A DNA stretch of 58,174 nt, taken from NCBI GenBank assembly GCA_026986785.1, contig JALSNW010000007.1, positions 1 through 58,174 on the forward strand, given 5' to 3'. Positions 238 to 56,424 of this stretch are shown piece after piece (within the stretch, counting starts at the first letter, position 1; each line of letters starts with the position of its first letter). Source of the DNA: Deltaproteobacteria bacterium. GTDB taxonomy: Bacteria; Desulfobacterota; Dissulfuribacteria; Dissulfuribacterales; QOAL01. The notes below the pieces were generated by a model that was not told the origin of the DNA, did not search any database, and saw only the letters and a list, made by a program, of their open reading frames with translations. A program made the position numbers and the translations under genes.

Positions 238-257
238 GTCCCAGTCCGAGCTGGGAC
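238..257 (+). terminator. Possible hairpin after the thioredoxin gene
   Basis: A perfect 7-bp inverted repeat (GTCCCAG, loop TCCGAG, CTGGGAC) lies 60 nt after the thioredoxin stop and before aroB. There is no T-run after it, so it is not a classical intrinsic terminator. It may be an RNA hairpin protecting a 3' end or chance. Confidence 0.25.
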
Positions 258-360
258 ATGTCAGGATGTCTCGCCTGTGGAATGCCTGCCCTGCGCTATA
301 TTTTCATATCCCATCCTTTTGTGATACATTAGCCAAAACGAGATTCGAAAAGGTTCAGAA

Positions 361-1497
361 ATGGGAAAAGAGATTAGTTTCGGAACTGGGGCCAAATGCA
401 AACCAGAAGATATCGTCCATGTATGGGAACGGGTCGAGGTCCCCTTGGCAGAGCGTTCCTATGAGATTCTTATAGGCCCAGGCCTATTGACAGAACTCCC
501 CGACAGGCTTCGAGAACTTGGCGTACCCAAGAGGCTTTTTATAGTTACCGATACAAATGTGGAAGATCTCATAGGCTATGATCTCCAGGCAATGTTGAAT
601 GACTCAGGTTTTCATGCGCACTTGTTGTCGTTTCCAGCAGGGGAAGAATCGAAAAACATGGATACCGTGGTGGATCTTGCCAGGAGGCTCGTCCAGCTTG
701 GAGCAGACAGAAGATCCATGCTCCTTGCCCTTGGAGGAGGGGTTAGTGGTGATATCGGGGGGTTTGTCGCATCTATCTTCATGAGAGGGATTTCCTTTAT
801 TCAGATCCCTACAACACTCCTGGCCCAGGTGGACAGCTCGGTCGGTGGAAAGACAGGGGTGGATCTACCAGAGGGGAAAAACCTATTGGGCACATTTGCC
901 CAGCCTGTGTCGGTGTTTGCAGATATTGGGGTCCTGACATCTTTGCCAGCATCAGAACTCAGAAACGGAATAGCTGAAATAGTAAAATATGGCATGATAA
1001 GGGACAGTTACCTTTTTGATTTTATCGAGAAGAAATGGTGGGATATCATAAATCTTGAACCTGAGACCACAAGTTTTATTATCAGGCGTTCCTGTGAAAT
1101 AAAGGCAGAGGTTGTCTCTAAAGACGAAAAAGAAGGTGGGCTCAGGCGGATATTGAACTTTGGCCATACCATAGGGCATGCAGTAGAGGCCGTGTCAGGT
1201 TACACCATCCCCCACGGAGAGGCCGTCTCTATAGGTATGGTGGCTGTATCGAAGATCTCTGTATCAAGGGGCCTTTTGACACCTGGACAATTATCGAGGC
1301 TCCAAGGGGTCCTGGAACAGTTCAAGCTACCCATAGAGATCCCAGATGGGATGGAGCCGGATTCCATCATACGCCATATGAAAAGGGACAAGAAGGTCCA
1401 GGATGGTAAGGTCCATTTCGTCCTCCCTGATGGCATTGGAAATACGGTGATCGTAAACGATGTTACCCAAAAGGAGCTGGAACTGGTATTTGGATAA
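361..1497 (+). CDS. aroB: 3-dehydroquinate synthase
   Basis: Cytoplasmic NAD- and divalent-metal-dependent enzyme converting DAHP to 3-dehydroquinate, step 2 of the shikimate pathway. The 378-residue protein has the glycine-rich GGGVSGDIGGF segment, PTTLLAQVDSSVGGKTGVD around residues 155-175, and RRILNFGHTIGHAVEA with metal-binding histidines. The length is slightly above the usual 350-360 because of an N-terminal extension of about 20 residues. The ATG at 361 has an AAAAGG-like ribosome site about 7 nt upstream, so I keep it, but a later start is possible. The preceding step, a DAHP synthase, is encoded separately at 34823-35836. Confidence 0.95.
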   Translation: MGKEISFGTGAKCKPEDIVHVWERVEVPLAERSYEILIGPGLLTELPDRLRELGVPKRLFIVTDTNVEDLIGYDLQAMLNDSGFHAHLLSFPAGEESKNMDTVVDLARRLVQLGADRRSMLLALGGGVSGDIGGFVASIFMRGISFIQIPTTLLAQVDSSVGGKTGVDLPEGKNLLGTFAQPVSVFADIGVLTSLPASELRNGIAEIVKYGMIRDSYLFDFIEKKWWDIINLEPETTSFIIRRSCEIKAEVVSKDEKEGGLRRILNFGHTIGHAVEAVSGYTIPHGEAVSIGMVAVSKISVSRGLLTPGQLSRLQGVLEQFKLPIEIPDGMEPDSIIRHMKRDKKVQDGKVHFVLPDGIGNTVIVNDVTQKELELVFG

Positions 1498-1509
1498 TGT
1501 CCCTTCGTG

Positions 1510-1550
1510 AAAAAACCCCTGTCTTTTCATGGACTGAAAAGTACAGGGGT
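1510..1550 (-). terminator. Rho-independent terminator of the chemotaxis operon
   Basis: A long inverted repeat (ACCCCTGT-CTTTTCA, 5-nt loop, TGAAAAG-T-ACAGGGGT, one bulged base) lies between aroB and the MCP gene. On the minus strand the stem is followed by a run of five to six T (the A-run at 1510-1515). This orientation fits termination of the minus-strand che operon. On the plus strand it may also block read-through from aroB. Confidence 0.75.
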
Positions 1551-1573
1551 TGTGGTCTCCTATCGAGATTGCC

Positions 1574-3895
1574 TTAGACCTCGACCAGCTTCTTGTCCTC
1601 GAGATTGTTCAGTATGGTCCTTACGAGATGAAGCATTTCCATGAACTTGGGCTGTATGGTATCCATGTAGAGGGCAAGTCTTTCCTGCCTCGATGCGCCC
1701 TTTTCTGTCATTTGTTTGAGTTCCTTTGCATATTCATGAAGTTCTACATGGAGTGAGATGAGCTTTTTCATGTCAGCACCAGTAACACTGATATCATCCT
1801 TATATCTTTCTATCCACTTTCCTATAAAGCACTGGTCTGGATCGTATTTTATCTCAGGGACCTTGTCCTCCATTATGGCAAGCCTGATGCTTTCGAGCCA
1901 GGCAAACTGTCCGAGCATGCTACCAGTAAGTTGGACCTTGGGTGTGGCATATCTTGAGACCTCATGAAGTACATCATATTCTACACTGTATAGGTCGGTC
2001 ACATCAGAGAGCTGATTGGAGAATGCCACAGTTATATTCTGCACGGTCTCTATGGTCCTTGCTATGTGGGAGAAGTCTTTGGCCTGTTCAGCAAGCGTGT
2101 GGGCCTGGGCCTCCAGGGTCTTCACCTTGTTGGCCCCTTGAGACACGCTCTCGTTTATCTCGGACACGGTTGCCGTCTGTTCTTCTGCTGCGCTGGCAAT
2201 GGTATTGGCAAAGTCATTTACCTCGGATACGCTTGTCGTGATCTCCTGGACCGATGTGACTGCCTCTGTAGTACCTTTTTGGATGACCTGTATCATCCTG
2301 GTTATCTCATCGGTTGCCTCTGAGGTCTGCTTGGCCAATTCCTTTACCTCGTTTGCAACGACGGCAAAACCCTTGCCTGCCTCGCCTGCCCTTGCTGCCT
2401 CTATGGTGGCATTGAGGGCCAAAAGGTTTGTCTGCTCTGCTATGGAGTTTATGACCTGGATTATACCCCCGATCTTTTCGGAGTTCTCTCCAAGCTCCTT
2501 TATGACCTTATTGGTATATTGGGCCTTTTCCTTGGCTTCATTGGTGGCCCTTGCAGTGTCCGCCACGTTATGGGCGATCTCATTGGTGGCATCTGCAAGC
2601 TCTTGGGTGGAATTTGCAACATTTTCCAGGGTGGCCGATGCCTCTGAAGAGGACTCTGCCACCTCTTTTGCTGCCTGGTCTATGTCTGTGGATCCGTCTT
2701 TGACTATCTCAGTGGCTGCTGTCAGCTCCCTTGTGGTGTCTTTGAGACCCAGAGACTGTTTCTTTAGGAGGTTGAGAAGATGTCCTGTGGTATATATGAC
2801 ATTGTTTGCCATCTTGCCTATGTTTCTGATCTCAAGGGCTCCGTGTGGTCTCACATACTTCGTGAGGTCTCCATGGGTTGTCTTTTCCAACACTGCCATT
2901 GTCTTTGCCAATGGTTCTTGGAGGGTCATCTTGAGTCCTATTATAGTAAAGACTATGGCGAGAAATCCTGCTACTACAGCTATGCCGCTTGAGGTCATCA
3001 TCTGTTTATGGACAAGCCCGTGAAGGGCACTGAGGTCTATATACTGGACACATACACCTGTAGGAGAGTTGTTGTAGTCCGGGATCTTGACAGCTGCTAT
3101 CAATAGATTCCCCAGGTTCTTTATTGCCTGACCATCTGTGATGGCCTTATCCAGAAAGGCCTCATCCACCTCCATCTTGTCCAGTGGATTTTTCGTGAGG
3201 ATCGCATACTTGCCCAGGTATTTCAGCTTGGAGCTTGCAGCAGTGGTCTTTACCCTTTGGAGGGCGAAAAGTTGTATCTTTCCATTGATGGAGCTCTCCA
3301 TCTCCTTGGCAACCGCGGACAAGCTGGTAGCGACCTCCACACTGGCCATTGGCGTTTTTTCTCCATCACGAAATATTGGAGCAATTCCCCTTATGGCAAG
3401 TCCAACCCTGCCTGCCTCAATACCTTTGACTGTCTTTCCGTTGGTCAGTACGTCCACCACAGTCTTTCTAAAGCTTGAGATGTCGTCTCCATTTTTATTT
3501 GGTTTCCACACCCTGAGAAAGGAGATGCCAGGTGGCAGATGAAAATGCACCTTTATCTTCACGTCCCTTCCCTTGTTTATGCTGTCGATGATGGGTTTTA
3601 CCGTGGCATAGAGAAGCTGTCTGTCCCTGTCTTCTATAGCCTTTTTCACCTTTTCCATGTTGGCGAAAAGGATGGCCAGCTCCATATTGGTGTCAGCTAG
3701 GATATCGGCCTTCTTTATCAGGGCGTCCTTGTTCTTTAAGGCGGATTCAATGATCTGTTTTTCTTCAGAGGAGGCTGAAGAATTGAGGATTATTATCTGT
3801 ATGCCTGTAAGGACGAAAACAATGATTGCTATGCCCATGAGTATGCGAAATACAAGCGTTGTGTTTTTATATCTATCTACCAATCCCTTTAACAT
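1574..3895 (-). CDS. Methyl-accepting chemotaxis protein with C-terminal CZB-like domain
   Basis: Inner-membrane chemoreceptor of 773 residues. Order: short cytoplasmic N-terminus, TM1 around residues 12-37, a periplasmic sensor of about 260 residues resembling a dCache-type domain ([16 protein letters not shown] motif), TM2 around 305-328, HAMP, then the signalling hairpin with [19 protein letters not shown], and a C-terminal CZB-like zinc-binding domain. In the CZB part the Cys of CFIGKW (C689) and the HVELH pair (H716, H720) are present, but the first His ligand position of the usual HxxW motif reads Q663-F-A-W666. I chose the ATG at 3895 because AAGGAGG lies 9 nt before it; an upstream ATG at 3943 has no good site. 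Last gene of the che operon, so probably its cognate receptor. Ligand unknown. Confidence 0.93.
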
Positions 3896-51370: not shown

Positions 51371-51457
51371 GCCGGAGTGGTGGAACTGGTAGACGCGCTG
51401 GACTCAAAATCCAGTGGACCTTGGTCCGTGCGAGTTCGACTCTCGCCTCCGGCACCA
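51371..51457 (+). tRNA. tRNA-Leu (anticodon CAA)
   Basis: Class II tRNA of 87 nt with a long variable arm. Acceptor GCCGGAG pairs with CTCCGGC; anticodon stem CTGGA/TCCAG has loop CTCAAAA, so the anticodon is CAA for UUG; T arm is GAGTTCGACTC, and CCA is encoded. Confidence 0.97.
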
Positions 51458-52036: not shown

Positions 52037-52097
52037 ATACATTGATTCTGGCAATCCATGGTTTGCTGAAAACGGGAGACAAGAGGAGGTATTTCGG

Positions 52098-53444
52098 ATG
52101 AAAAGTCCACTTTCCAAAGGATTTCTACTGACAGCGCTAATCTTGATCATTTCCCCATGCATGAATGCGTGGACGGCAGAAGAAGATACGTCTGACAGCA
52201 GTCAGTGCGTAGCCTGCCACACAGACCTCGAAGAGATGGATGATTATGGTGCAAAGGCAGCCAGCGCTGCTGCTGCGGTGGCTGGCTGAGGTGTCTCTGC
52301 ACCCCAGGTAAGGGGGCGCGATACCTTTGGAGTAGCCAAGGATTTCTTAGATACACCTCACGGTGAACTTGGCTGTCGTTACTGTCACAAGGGCCAAAAT
52401 GTAGACGACGAAGAAGAGGCCCACAAAGGCATTATAAAAGATCCATCCGATGCCCAGGGCGGGGGGGTCTGTAGGGAATGTCACGAGGACATCACTTCAA
52501 CCTATAAGGATTCCATGCACTATACCCTCAATGGGATAATGGACATAGTCAAGACTATTTCCCAGCCTCATAAGCTAAAAGACACCCTGCTTCCAGAGGC
52601 ATGGAAATTGGATTGTGCTGAATGTCATGCCAGCTGTGGAAGCTGCCACGTGGCTTGGCCCCATGTGTCAAAGGGTGGACTAATCGACCGACACAGGTTC
52701 CAAAAGAAGCCGCCCATGGAAAAGACCTGTTTTGGTTGTCATGGTTCCCGCTTTGCCGGTGAATATGTAGGTTTCCTTGGGGAGAATGCAGATGTTCATT
52801 ACTCCAAGGGCCAGATGGAGTGTTACGACTGTCACAAGGGCTCGCAATTTCACGAAACCAAACCCAAGGGAGTAAAACGCTATTATGCCACAGAAACACC
52901 AAGGTGCGAACAGTGCCACCCAGATGCAGTGCCAGGCAGATCAAGGATACCCATGCACAATGCCCACGGGAAAAACGTACTGGCCTGTCAGGTGTGCCAT
53001 GCCACTACATACTTCAACTGCCAAAACTGCCATGTATCTCTCGATGTAAAGAAAGAAGGGGAAATAAAGGTAATATTTCCATCTGATCCACTCTATACCT
53101 TCAAGATCGGGAAAAATATAGATATTGGTCCAAACAATCCATACAAGTACAACCTTGTAAGGCATTCTCCCATGAGGAAGGATTCCCTGGCATCCTTGCG
53201 CTATTTCCAGGCCGTGATCAAGGGAAAGCCTGGTCCCAAGGACCTGATTGCCAACTGGGATGCACTTCCTACCTGGAATTCCGCTGCTGTTCACAGCATC
53301 CAGAGAAAAACGAGACAGAACCAATCGTGTAATTCCTGTCATGGGGTCAAGGAGCTTTTCCTCACCAAGGACGACATAAGGCCAGAAGATCCCAAGGCTA
53401 ACTACAAGGTGGTGGCAAAGGTTCCACCCAAGATAAAGAAATAG
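52098..53444 (+). CDS. Predicted selenocysteine-containing undecahaem c-type cytochrome
   Basis: Read through the in-frame TGA at 52287-52289 as selenocysteine 64, giving 448 residues. GAGGAGG lies 8 nt before the ATG. A signal peptide (MKSPLSKGFLLTALILIISP...) is followed by CVACH at 37-41, an Ala-rich stretch AASAAAAVAG, Sec64, then ten more CxxCH motifs: CRYCH, CRECH, CAECH, CGSCH, CFGCH, CYDCH, CEQCH, CQVCH, CQNCH, CNSCH. Eleven haems in total, in the periplasm. No stop lies between TGA and 52515, and CRYCH and CRECH fall there before any ATG. Read as two genes, the second would start at 52515 and lose these haems and a signal peptide. First gene of the four-gene operon. Function unknown; Sec suggests chemistry with Se, S or a redox centre. 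Confidence 0.85.
52290..52325 (+). promoter_or_regulatory. Bacterial SECIS-like stem-loop after the in-frame TGA
   Basis: Directly after the TGA: GGTGTC (52290-52295) pairs with GATACC (52320-52325) using one G-T pair, and CCCC (52302-52305) pairs with GGGG (52312-52315) around the apical loop AGGTAA (52306-52311). Inner bases 52296-52301 and 52316-52319 form an irregular internal loop with a few possible pairs. The loop GGT is 17 nt after the TGA; the known bacterial loop of fdhF is AGGUCU at a similar distance, as I remember it. Confidence 0.75.
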
Positions 53445-53471: not shown

Positions 53472-54443
53472 ATGCACAAGATAATACAAGGCAACATGAT
53501 ATGTTTACTGGTGATGGTGGTATTAGCTTCTGCCGTCAGTTCCCCTGGCTGGGTATCGGCGGCCGGGACAGCCCCACTGGTTTCAACTGATTGGCTGGAC
53601 AAGCACAAGTCGGACAAGGCGGTTGTCATCGTAGATGTACGTAGCGATGCAAACTACGGCTTTGCTCACATACCAAATGCAGTGAGTATCCCCTATACGG
53701 AACTGGAGCCCAAATCGACCACTGGACTCTTTGTGGTACCTGGGGAGAAGAAATTGACCGAACTATTCCAAAAGGCAGGGATAAACAAGAATTCCCATGT
53801 GGTCGTTTATGCCCATGGAAATACCGTTAGTGATGCCTCGAAGGCAGGGGCATCTTATTGGATATTCAAGGCCATGGGGCACAAGAAGGTCTCTATGCTC
53901 AACGGTGGATTCACCAAGTGGACTTTTGAAGGCAGAGTTGTGACCAACAAGGTCCCAAATAGGAAACGAGGCAATATCGTGGCCAAGAAGGACCCGTCTA
54001 TCTTTGCGGATTTCCATGAGGTGGCCAGGGTTGTTCAAAAGGGTGGTGCCATTCTCATGGATGCCAGAAATTCTGTTCAATATTTCGGCCATGAAAAAAG
54101 GGCAGACGTGCCATGTTATGGACATATACCCGGTGCCATTAATCTACCTGCTGATTTTCTGACCCACGCAGGTATCAATAGGGCTCCAGCCACCCTGAAG
54201 GAAAAAAAGGACCTGCAAAGGATGGTGACAGGTGTAGGTGTTCCCAGCACCAAGTCCACTACCATAATAGTTTATTGCAACACCGCTCAGTTGGCGGGGC
54301 TGAATTATTTGGTGTTGAAAGACATGCTTGGTTACAGAAATGTCAAGGTATACGACGGTTCAATGCTGGAATATTGCAAGCTCAAGGGAAAACTCCCAGT
54401 GGAAATTTTTTCCTGGAGCATAAACCCGCCCAAAAAACTGTAG
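53472..54443 (+). CDS. Exported tandem-domain rhodanese, catalytic Cys present
   Basis: A 323-residue periplasmic sulfurtransferase. The signal peptide is about 1-30 (ICLLVMVVLASAVSS...VSA). Two rhodanese domains follow: the first (about 35-160) has VVYAHGNTVS where the Cys should be, so it is the usual inactive half; the second (about 175-320) has the catalytic Cys at C269 in VYCNTAQLAG. Second gene of the operon, 27 nt after the cytochrome, with AGGAG 7 nt before the ATG. It could move sulfane sulfur or a selenium equivalent. Confidence 0.9.
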   Translation: MHKIIQGNMICLLVMVVLASAVSSPGWVSAAGTAPLVSTDWLDKHKSDKAVVIVDVRSDANYGFAHIPNAVSIPYTELEPKSTTGLFVVPGEKKLTELFQKAGINKNSHVVVYAHGNTVSDASKAGASYWIFKAMGHKKVSMLNGGFTKWTFEGRVVTNKVPNRKRGNIVAKKDPSIFADFHEVARVVQKGGAILMDARNSVQYFGHEKRADVPCYGHIPGAINLPADFLTHAGINRAPATLKEKKDLQRMVTGVGVPSTKSTTIIVYCNTAQLAGLNYLVLKDMLGYRNVKVYDGSMLEYCKLKGKLPVEIFSWSINPPKKL

Positions 54444-54464: not shown

Positions 54465-55430
54465 ATGCGCCTCAAAATACGACTGACTATTGCCACAGTA
54501 GTGATGACTGCGGTGCTGATATGTGCAGGACTCGTCGCACCGCGGCAGTCTTCAGCTGCAAATGGTCTTGTGACAATCGAATGGTTATCGAAGCACCTCA
54601 ATGACAAAGGATTGATAATCCTGGATGTGAGGACTTTCCCTAAGTACATCAAGAGTCATATCCCAGGTGCCATCAGGGCCTTTGGGCCCTGGCAGGTAAC
54701 AAATGCCGACTTCATTGGTTTCATGACACCGCCAGTGGAACAATTGGAAAATATGCTCAGGGGATTTGGGGTATCAAACGACTCCCTGATCATAATCTAT
54801 GATCAGGGCATGACTTCCAGTGATACCTCGAAAAGTGCAAGGGCACTGTGGACATTGCACTATCTTGGACACACCAAATGCGCCATCTTAAATGGCGGAT
54901 TCAATGCCTGGGAGCAGAGGGAAAAACCCATCACTACCCAGCCAGCAGTACCCATGACAGGAACATTCAAGGCCAAAGTTGTGTCCAACAAGCTTATAAC
55001 CCTTGACGAGGTGAAGAAGAAACTCGGCAAAAAGAATTGCTGGTTTGTAGATCTCAGACAGCCCCATGAGCACTTTGGCCATGAAAAGAAGAGCTATATA
55101 TCTCGTTTTGGCCACCTTAGAGGCTCTCTTCTCATGCCATCTGCATATATGACCATAGGAGGACAGGATTTTTCACCTGCTTATCTAAGGAGCAAAGACA
55201 AATTGAGGCATATGGCAGCCGGGTGCGGTATCCCATCCGATCCGAATGCAGAGATTGTTGTCTATAGCAATACAGGTCTTGATGCTGCTCTGGGATATTT
55301 TGTCCTGAACGAGATCCTGGGTTACAAAAATGTAAGATTGTTTGATGGTTCCATGCTTGAGGCTTCCAAAGACAAGGATGTGCCAATCACCAGGTATTCC
55401 TGGGGTTGGAATGATTACAGAAATAAATAG
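54465..55430 (+). CDS. Exported tandem-domain rhodanese, catalytic Cys replaced by Ser
   Basis: A 321-residue paralogue of the preceding protein, with a signal peptide (MRLKIRLTIATVVMTAVLIC...). The first domain has IYDQGMTSSD at the active position; the second has VVYSNTGLDAALGYF, with Ser268 (codon AGC) in place of the catalytic Cys. It is not a recoded TGA. It should not be an active sulfurtransferase, and may bind ligand or partner. GGAGG lies 8 nt before the ATG and the gap from the previous gene is 21 nt. Confidence 0.9.
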   Translation: MRLKIRLTIATVVMTAVLICAGLVAPRQSSAANGLVTIEWLSKHLNDKGLIILDVRTFPKYIKSHIPGAIRAFGPWQVTNADFIGFMTPPVEQLENMLRGFGVSNDSLIIIYDQGMTSSDTSKSARALWTLHYLGHTKCAILNGGFNAWEQREKPITTQPAVPMTGTFKAKVVSNKLITLDEVKKKLGKKNCWFVDLRQPHEHFGHEKKSYISRFGHLRGSLLMPSAYMTIGGQDFSPAYLRSKDKLRHMAAGCGIPSDPNAEIVVYSNTGLDAALGYFVLNEILGYKNVRLFDGSMLEASKDKDVPITRYSWGWNDYRNK

Positions 55431-55457: not shown

Positions 55458-56336
55458 ATGAGGAGAAGTTGTATTAGCGTTACAATCGTAATAGCTGCTG
55501 CATTCATACTGACAGCCATTGGGAATGCCCGTGCAGGGGCACCACTGACCAATGCGGAAGGTGTTGGAGGGGTTGCCCTAAATCCCATGGCATATATCGC
55601 CAATCCTATCAAAGAGGGAGAAAAGGGTCTTTTTGGTGCTGGTATCGTATCAAAACCCCAACTTGGTATCTGGAATATCAGATTGTCTGAAAGCGGGGTA
55701 AACTGGTTTACCATAGGCGGTAATATCTCTTTTTTCAACAGGCTGGAACTCGGCTATTCCCATGAATTCATCGACATAGAAGACGTTCCAAAAACTGTTG
55801 ACAAGAACAATTTCACATTCAAGTTGAATCTTATCAAGGAAAATGATTTTGGCACGAAATTCCTACCAGCATTGTCTTTCGGAGGCATCTATAAGACAAC
55901 CGATGCTGACGATGACTTTGCCCTCAAAGACACAGAGGACTTCGACTTTTATTTCGTGGCCACGAAGATGATTCCTGGATTGCCTGTACCACTCATCCTC
56001 AACGCAGGTGTGCTCAACACCAAGGGTTATGTAAGAGGAGTTCTTGGTTTTGGAGATGACAGGGCCTGGGTATTTTTTGGCAATATAGATACAATACTCT
56101 TCGACAAGTTCATCGTTGGCTGGGAGTATGAACAAGAGGCCGAGGTAGGAGACGTGTTCAAGGGAGAAAAAGGGCAAAAACACACTACCCACTCCATGTG
56201 GGAGGCACATGTAGCATATATGTATAATGAGCACCTGACACTTGTAGGTTCATGGGCCTACACTGGGGATAGTGACTCGAGTGGCCAGGCTGCATTCGAT
56301 CATGCCTATGTCCTCTCACTGCAATACGCTTTTTAG
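55458..56336 (+). CDS. Outer-membrane beta-barrel protein (DUF3034-like)
   Basis: A 292-residue exported protein: signal peptide 1-27, then many amphipathic strands (LGIWNIRLSESGVNWFTIGGNIS, LELGYSHEFIDI, FKLNLIKENDFG, GFGDDRAWVFFGN, HVAYMYNEHLTLVGSWAYTG) and a terminal Phe (LQYAF), as expected of barrels assembled by Bam. It resembles the DUF3034 group by memory. Last gene of the operon, GGAGG 10 nt before the ATG. A porin for the substrate or the outer part of an electron conduit is inference. Confidence 0.85.
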   Translation: MRRSCISVTIVIAAAFILTAIGNARAGAPLTNAEGVGGVALNPMAYIANPIKEGEKGLFGAGIVSKPQLGIWNIRLSESGVNWFTIGGNISFFNRLELGYSHEFIDIEDVPKTVDKNNFTFKLNLIKENDFGTKFLPALSFGGIYKTTDADDDFALKDTEDFDFYFVATKMIPGLPVPLILNAGVLNTKGYVRGVLGFGDDRAWVFFGNIDTILFDKFIVGWEYEQEAEVGDVFKGEKGQKHTTHSMWEAHVAYMYNEHLTLVGSWAYTGDSDSSGQAAFDHAYVLSLQYAF

Positions 56337-56395: not shown

Positions 56396-56424
56396 GGGCC
56401 CTTTGAAAGGGCCCTTTCTATTTT
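56396..56424 (+). terminator. Strong Rho-independent terminator after the porin gene
   Basis: GGGCCCTT, loop TGA, AAGGGCCC forms an 8-bp GC-rich stem followed by TTTCTATTTT. It is 59 nt after the porin stop and closes the cytochrome-rhodanese-rhodanese-porin operon. Confidence 0.9.

Follow-up and report, generated by a model that had tools for sequence, protein, structure and literature searches.

The Cytochrome Gene and Its In-Frame TGA

Does the in-frame TGA that divides a multihaem cytochrome gene in this DNA end a protein, or is it read as selenocysteine (Sec), and what would such a protein do? In the window, by which we mean the whole stretch of 58,174 nucleotides that was analysed, the open reading frames beginning at 52098 and 52515 share one frame. 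The sole stop between them is the TGA at 52287-52289, and the next in-frame stop is a TAG at 53442. The first-pass annotation had described a single TGA at 52287 within a shared frame of 52098-53444 containing 11 CxxCH motifs, and reading of the ORFs and translations confirmed this, with one motif before the TGA and ten after it. The features of the gene are as follows.

52083-52089, plus strand: ribosome-binding-like GAGGAGG, recognized by sequence, 8 nt 5' of the cytochrome start
52098-53444, plus strand: gene for an 11-haem c-type cytochrome with predicted Sec64, 448 aa by read-through (11 CxxCH motifs; orthologues with the same TGA)
52098-52178, plus strand: probable signal peptide, about residues 1-27 (sequence; fast-evolving segment)
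52287-52289, plus strand: in-frame TGA, residue 64, predicted to be read as Sec (TGA in 49 of 50 column-spanning relatives)
52374-52484, plus strand: stretch 3' of the TGA with CRYCH and CRECH, ahead of the earliest restart at 52515
52515-53444, plus strand: ORF from a restart at Met140, with no signal peptide and only 8 haem sites

The annotation had also placed two haem motifs between the TGA and any ATG. Both CRYCH (52374-52388) and CRECH (52470-52484) were indeed found there. Because the ORF listing puts the start of the downstream ORF at 52515, there is no in-frame ATG, GTG or TTG between the TGA and this position. The ATG at 52515 is the earliest possible restart, and a protein begun there would therefore lack three haem sites as well as the signal-like N-terminus. 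The protein matches the Pfam models Cytochrome_C7 and Cytochrom_c3_2 and is predicted to be an exported, periplasmic multihaem c-type cytochrome. The Sec position is flanked by Gly on one side and Gly or Ala on the other (Gly-Sec-Gly/Ala), after haem site 1 and before haem site 2, and no resolving Cys adjoins it. The earlier description of Sec64 as following an Ala-rich segment and the first haem held, with the limit that among the relatives the Ala-rich stretch is confined to the order of the window. A PDB sequence search with the cytochrome returned no match, and AlphaFold prediction from six sequences gave a mean pLDDT of 28.7 and no usable structure.

Conservation of the TGA Among Relatives

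The phylum was scanned (395 genomes) with five orthologues as queries, and a repeat with 28 members as queries recovered the same set. The cytochrome gene was found in 47 of the 395 genomes. Among the 50 relatives spanning the Sec column, as counted from the table for the 395 genomes, 49 have TGA, representing 21 families, and one has TAC (Tyr). None of the 50 has Cys, Trp, TAA or TAG at this column, so that the codon check suggested with the original prediction gave TGA throughout except for one Tyr, and neither TGC nor TGT. Gly63 and position 64 are invariant in the 28-member alignment, and distant relatives retain only a G-U-[G/A] core around Sec. In the window's family, the gene is present, with one TGA, in four genomes (G001, G017, G014, and G015), and the other 14 genomes searched had no comparable match.

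After the family members, the scores fall sharply to about 88 bits or less, and such matches miss the Sec region. Approximately 24 genomes gave matches of about 58-88 bits to the central part of the model only, in frames without stops and mostly of 350-420 aa. These cytochromes are possibly distant cousins without Sec.

The exceptional Tyr (GKGYM) stands in locus L077 (G352:C82, about 255-2387, minus strand), where a tandem rhodanese is joined to the C-terminal end of the cytochrome. SelB is present in this genome, and Sec is therefore not absolutely needed there. A second cytochrome-rhodanese fusion was seen at L078 (G019:C219), on a contig that begins after the Sec region.

Compared with the closest orthologue, the differences at codon positions 1, 2, and 3 numbered 5, 3, and 35 in residues 65-139 and 22, 9, and 156 in residues 140-448. 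The excess at third positions in residues 65-139 indicates that the stretch from the TGA to Met140 is selected as protein. These results bear on the simplest alternative, namely that the locus holds two separate operon genes or one gene disrupted by a nonsense mutation or a sequencing error. Two ORFs do exist mechanically, and a two-gene alternative was raised for the Geobacter cytochrome ExtKL by Fujita et al. (PMC1914089). However, TGA is the only stop at a single column in 49 relatives, there is no start before Met140, and the intervening haem sites are conserved and under purifying selection. A chance TGA is excluded by its retention in 49 of the 50 relatives, which also bears out the earlier view that a nonsense mutation is not the explanation. 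We therefore rejected this alternative as refuted in practice by conservation, and its remaining probability is negligible.

Selenocysteine Machinery and Genetic Code

Family searches were made in the genome to which the window belongs (2.59 Mb, 99% complete). SelA (contig C22, 603 bits), SelB (contig C23, 350 bits), SelD (contig C28, 367 bits), and a tRNA-Sec (selC) with the anticodon TCA (contig C22) were all found, so the four genes that the first-pass annotation had named as a check are present. SelD has one in-frame TGA of its own (L053, G000 C28:10066-10989) and is itself a predicted selenoprotein with the segment SGUAAKIGPEDL. Its gene resembles that of the cytochrome in that a hairpin loop is predicted at a similar distance from the TGA, but the proteins are unrelated and the SelD hairpin was no stronger than its shuffles (z 0.12).

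SelB was detected in 40 of the 41 genomes checked. The exception, G051, carries a TGA-bearing member (L130, G051:C210:147-1460), yet its 94%-complete bin gave no SelB match. Family genomes without the cytochrome gene carry SelB too; SelB is therefore necessary but not discriminating.

If the code were variant, or the stop simply read through, the TGA could stand for Trp or another residue, and the frame is indeed open once the TGA is passed. But TGA terminates 18 of the 32 selected window genes, the code being otherwise normal, TGG occurs at the column in no relative, and both the Sec machinery and a hairpin are present. Accordingly, a variant code was rejected, and decoding as any residue other than Sec is very improbable.

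A SECIS-Like Hairpin Downstream of the TGA

Bacterial SECIS elements are hairpins lying just after the UGA, with a G within the first two bases of the loop. The window has a structure of this kind, as the original prediction of a SECIS-like loop directly 3' of the TGA had claimed.

52288-52327, plus strand: SECIS-like hairpin, apical stem 52302-52305/52312-52315, loop AGGUAA at 52306-52311 (folding, sister-group covariation, synonymous-codon null)

The hairpin had an energy of -20.7 kcal/mol (z -2.4), and 3 of 200 shuffles were as good. Its loop begins 16 nt past the UGA, and the distance is 16-17 nt across the relatives. G-[G/T]-T was found at the matching place in nearly all sequences of three groups of relatives. 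In the second (sister) group of 16 sequences, 94.6% of the stem cells were paired and three pairs were changed on both sides. The covariation score of this group was 0.383 compared with a shuffled mean of 0.168, a value that none of 500 shuffles reached. Pair covariation was weak in the window's own clade, and the third sister group had a conserved hairpin with no covariation. At A3 columns 17-18/26-27 of the second group, a swap between Ala-Pro-Leu-Glu and Glu-Pro-Leu-Ala coincides with one between GGCTCC...GGAGCC and GGAGCC...GGCTCC, as if the RNA structure were driving the amino-acid change.

A synonymous null, in which the protein was kept and synonymous codons were resampled, was applied with a threshold of p ≤ 0.05. 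The local hairpin beat this null in 19 of 29 sequences compared with 3 of 99 control stretches; the sequences are related, and a combined p should not be taken at face value. The window's own hairpin gave p values of 0.16 (local) and 0.07 (whole). The Rfam search returned no SECIS match.

Together, the Sec machinery, the conservation of the TGA, and the hairpin back the recoding proposed by the first-pass annotation. On this sequence evidence, the TGA at residue 64 is almost certainly recoded to selenocysteine. Sec64 would be inserted at the UGA by SelB and tRNA-Sec together with the hairpin just downstream.

The Operon and Its Rhodanese Partner

The cytochrome gene is followed on the same strand by two genes for tandem rhodaneses and one for a DUF3034 protein, in this order.

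53472-54443, plus strand: secreted tandem rhodanese 1, second domain with a catalytic-type Cys (YCNTAQLAG)
54465-55430, plus strand: secreted tandem rhodanese 2, probably non-catalytic, with the Cys replaced (YSNTG)
55458-56336, plus strand: DUF3034 protein with a signal peptide and a C-terminal Phe, probably an outer-membrane barrel
56396-56414, plus strand: terminator-like hairpin closing the four-gene operon

A tRNA-Leu (CAA) lies just 5' of the operon, at window positions 51371-51457. Most genomes of the family lack the operon, and the flanking DNA varies among the carriers, so the operon may be mobile. In the congeners searched for an empty site, the phosphorylase was present, and the operon genes and the flanking HAD gene were absent from the adjoining stretch.

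In 24 of the 25 loci examined, a rhodanese is the next gene downstream on the same strand or, in G352, is fused to the cytochrome. The partners are of at least three kinds, namely CNT/CDT tandem, CKxGGR single, and CRSGSR single. They retain the catalytic-type Cys, with the exception of the window's rhodanese 2, and those that were fully read have signal-like N-termini. Since the association is kept with differing kinds of rhodanese, it seems functional rather than one frozen operon. In the loci examined from other orders, the rhodanese alone is kept, and no DUF3034 relative adjoined the gene. Loci of a third group (L114, L115, and L118) hold further genes after the cytochrome-rhodanese pair, for two large multihaem cytochromes of 7-9 haems and an additional tandem rhodanese.

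Proposed Function

We propose that the cytochrome is a periplasmic redox enzyme for sulfane sulfur (persulfide, polysulfide, or elemental sulfur) or for Se/Te oxyanions. The rhodanese Cys would load sulfane sulfur or its selenium or tellurium equivalent, the Sec selenol would accept the sulfane sulfur from the rhodanese as an Se-S adduct, and the haem chain would supply or remove electrons. There is no Cys beside Sec for a UxxC couple, and Sec accepting sulfane sulfur from the rhodanese is therefore the simplest reading. As to substrate, direction, and what Sec does in this scheme, our confidence falls slightly short of even odds.

In another arrangement, Sec would be a haem ligand or would tune a conduit for extracellular electron transfer, with the rhodanese as a maturation or protective partner. 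The multihaem character of the protein, the barrel-like neighbor, and the large multihaem neighbors in the third group fit such a conduit. However, many loci show no conduit genes, and the strict pairing with differing rhodanese kinds better fits a substrate partner, so we consider this arrangement improbable.

Combining the Sec call with the sulfane-sulfur mechanism, the explanation as a whole is given a probability of roughly 80%. A further step would be to see here a novel class of enzymes, undecahaem cytochromes that depend on Sec, with a dedicated periplasmic rhodanese as the source of sulfane sulfur (or Se/Te), an Se-S intermediate, and reduction or oxidation by the haems, present in approximately one in eight of the sampled phylum genomes. 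This proposal is more tentative still than the mechanism itself.

The family is a well-supported addition to the short list of selenocysteine cytochromes. Its gene, which standard ORF calling splits or truncates, is carried by approximately 12% of the genomes sampled from a major anaerobic phylum. Moreover, the steady pairing with a rhodanese provides a concrete hypothesis of a periplasmic sulfur (or selenium) redox step.

Comparison With Known Systems

ExtKL of Geobacter is a multihaem cytochrome with Sec that was predicted in 2007 (PMC1914089), and its cluster holds a rhodanese and a porin (PMC6148476). The deletion of extI impairs the reduction of selenite and tellurite, and preliminary data implicate ExtKL (PMC5877670). 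The comparison with ExtKL recommended at the outset held in one respect and failed in another. As an analogue it stands: in both clusters, a multihaem c-type cytochrome with one predicted Sec is accompanied by rhodanese (ExtH in Geobacter) and by an outer-membrane barrel (ExtI) or, in the window, the DUF3034 protein, a putative barrel that matches no ExtI model. As a matter of family it does not. ExtKL has 5 haems with Sec after haem 5 (IPDGUPTPNR), whereas the window cytochrome has 11 haems with Sec after haem 1. The ExtKL model NF040886 (curated cut-off 250 bits) gave no match to the window cytochrome at E ≤ 10 and none to its relatives at E ≤ 0.01, and in a profile comparison only 23 columns around one CxxCH aligned. 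Membership in the ExtKL family was rejected on these grounds and on the different place of Sec. NF040886 itself scored above its cut-off in 40 of the 395 phylum genomes, nearly always with one TGA. A separate stop-less cytochrome in the window's genome (L042:6559-7896, G000 C13) matched it weakly at 56.7 bits and has Ser (HSIPSGS) at the Sec place of ExtKL.

The resemblance raises the prospect that the window cytochrome belongs to a selenite or tellurite reductase equivalent in function to extHIJKL, rather than to a sulfur enzyme. The matching kinds of gene cluster together, and the extI phenotype and the preliminary ExtKL data point the same way. Yet the homology to ExtKL is limited to the neighborhood of one CxxCH, outside the window's order only the rhodanese is kept with no DUF3034 relative seen adjoining, and ExtKL itself is without a proven substrate. 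We judge such a reductase unlikely, if a little less so than the conduit, and retain the sulfane-sulfur scheme as the preferred proposal. Rhodanese 1 resembles both ExtH (NF040901, 71.6 bits) and 3-mercaptopyruvate sulfurtransferase (106 bits), below the curated cut-offs of 200 and 250 bits, respectively.

Like the window cytochrome, the octahaem cytochrome of the tetrathionate-reductase family (TIGR04315), which PMC13188914 lists, is a multihaem cytochrome with Sec; its model gave no match to the window cytochrome at E ≤ 10. NCBIfam 20.0 has no entry for the cytochrome family, and the 119 families of a 2026 selenoprotein inventory (PMC13188914) include ExtKL and the octahaem family and none that fits the window cytochrome. 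The cytochrome is apparently a separate, uncatalogued family working in an ExtKL-like setting. As the cytochromes show no overall homology, the parallel with the ExtKL/ExtH/ExtI cluster suggests that one chemistry may have been put together on two occasions.
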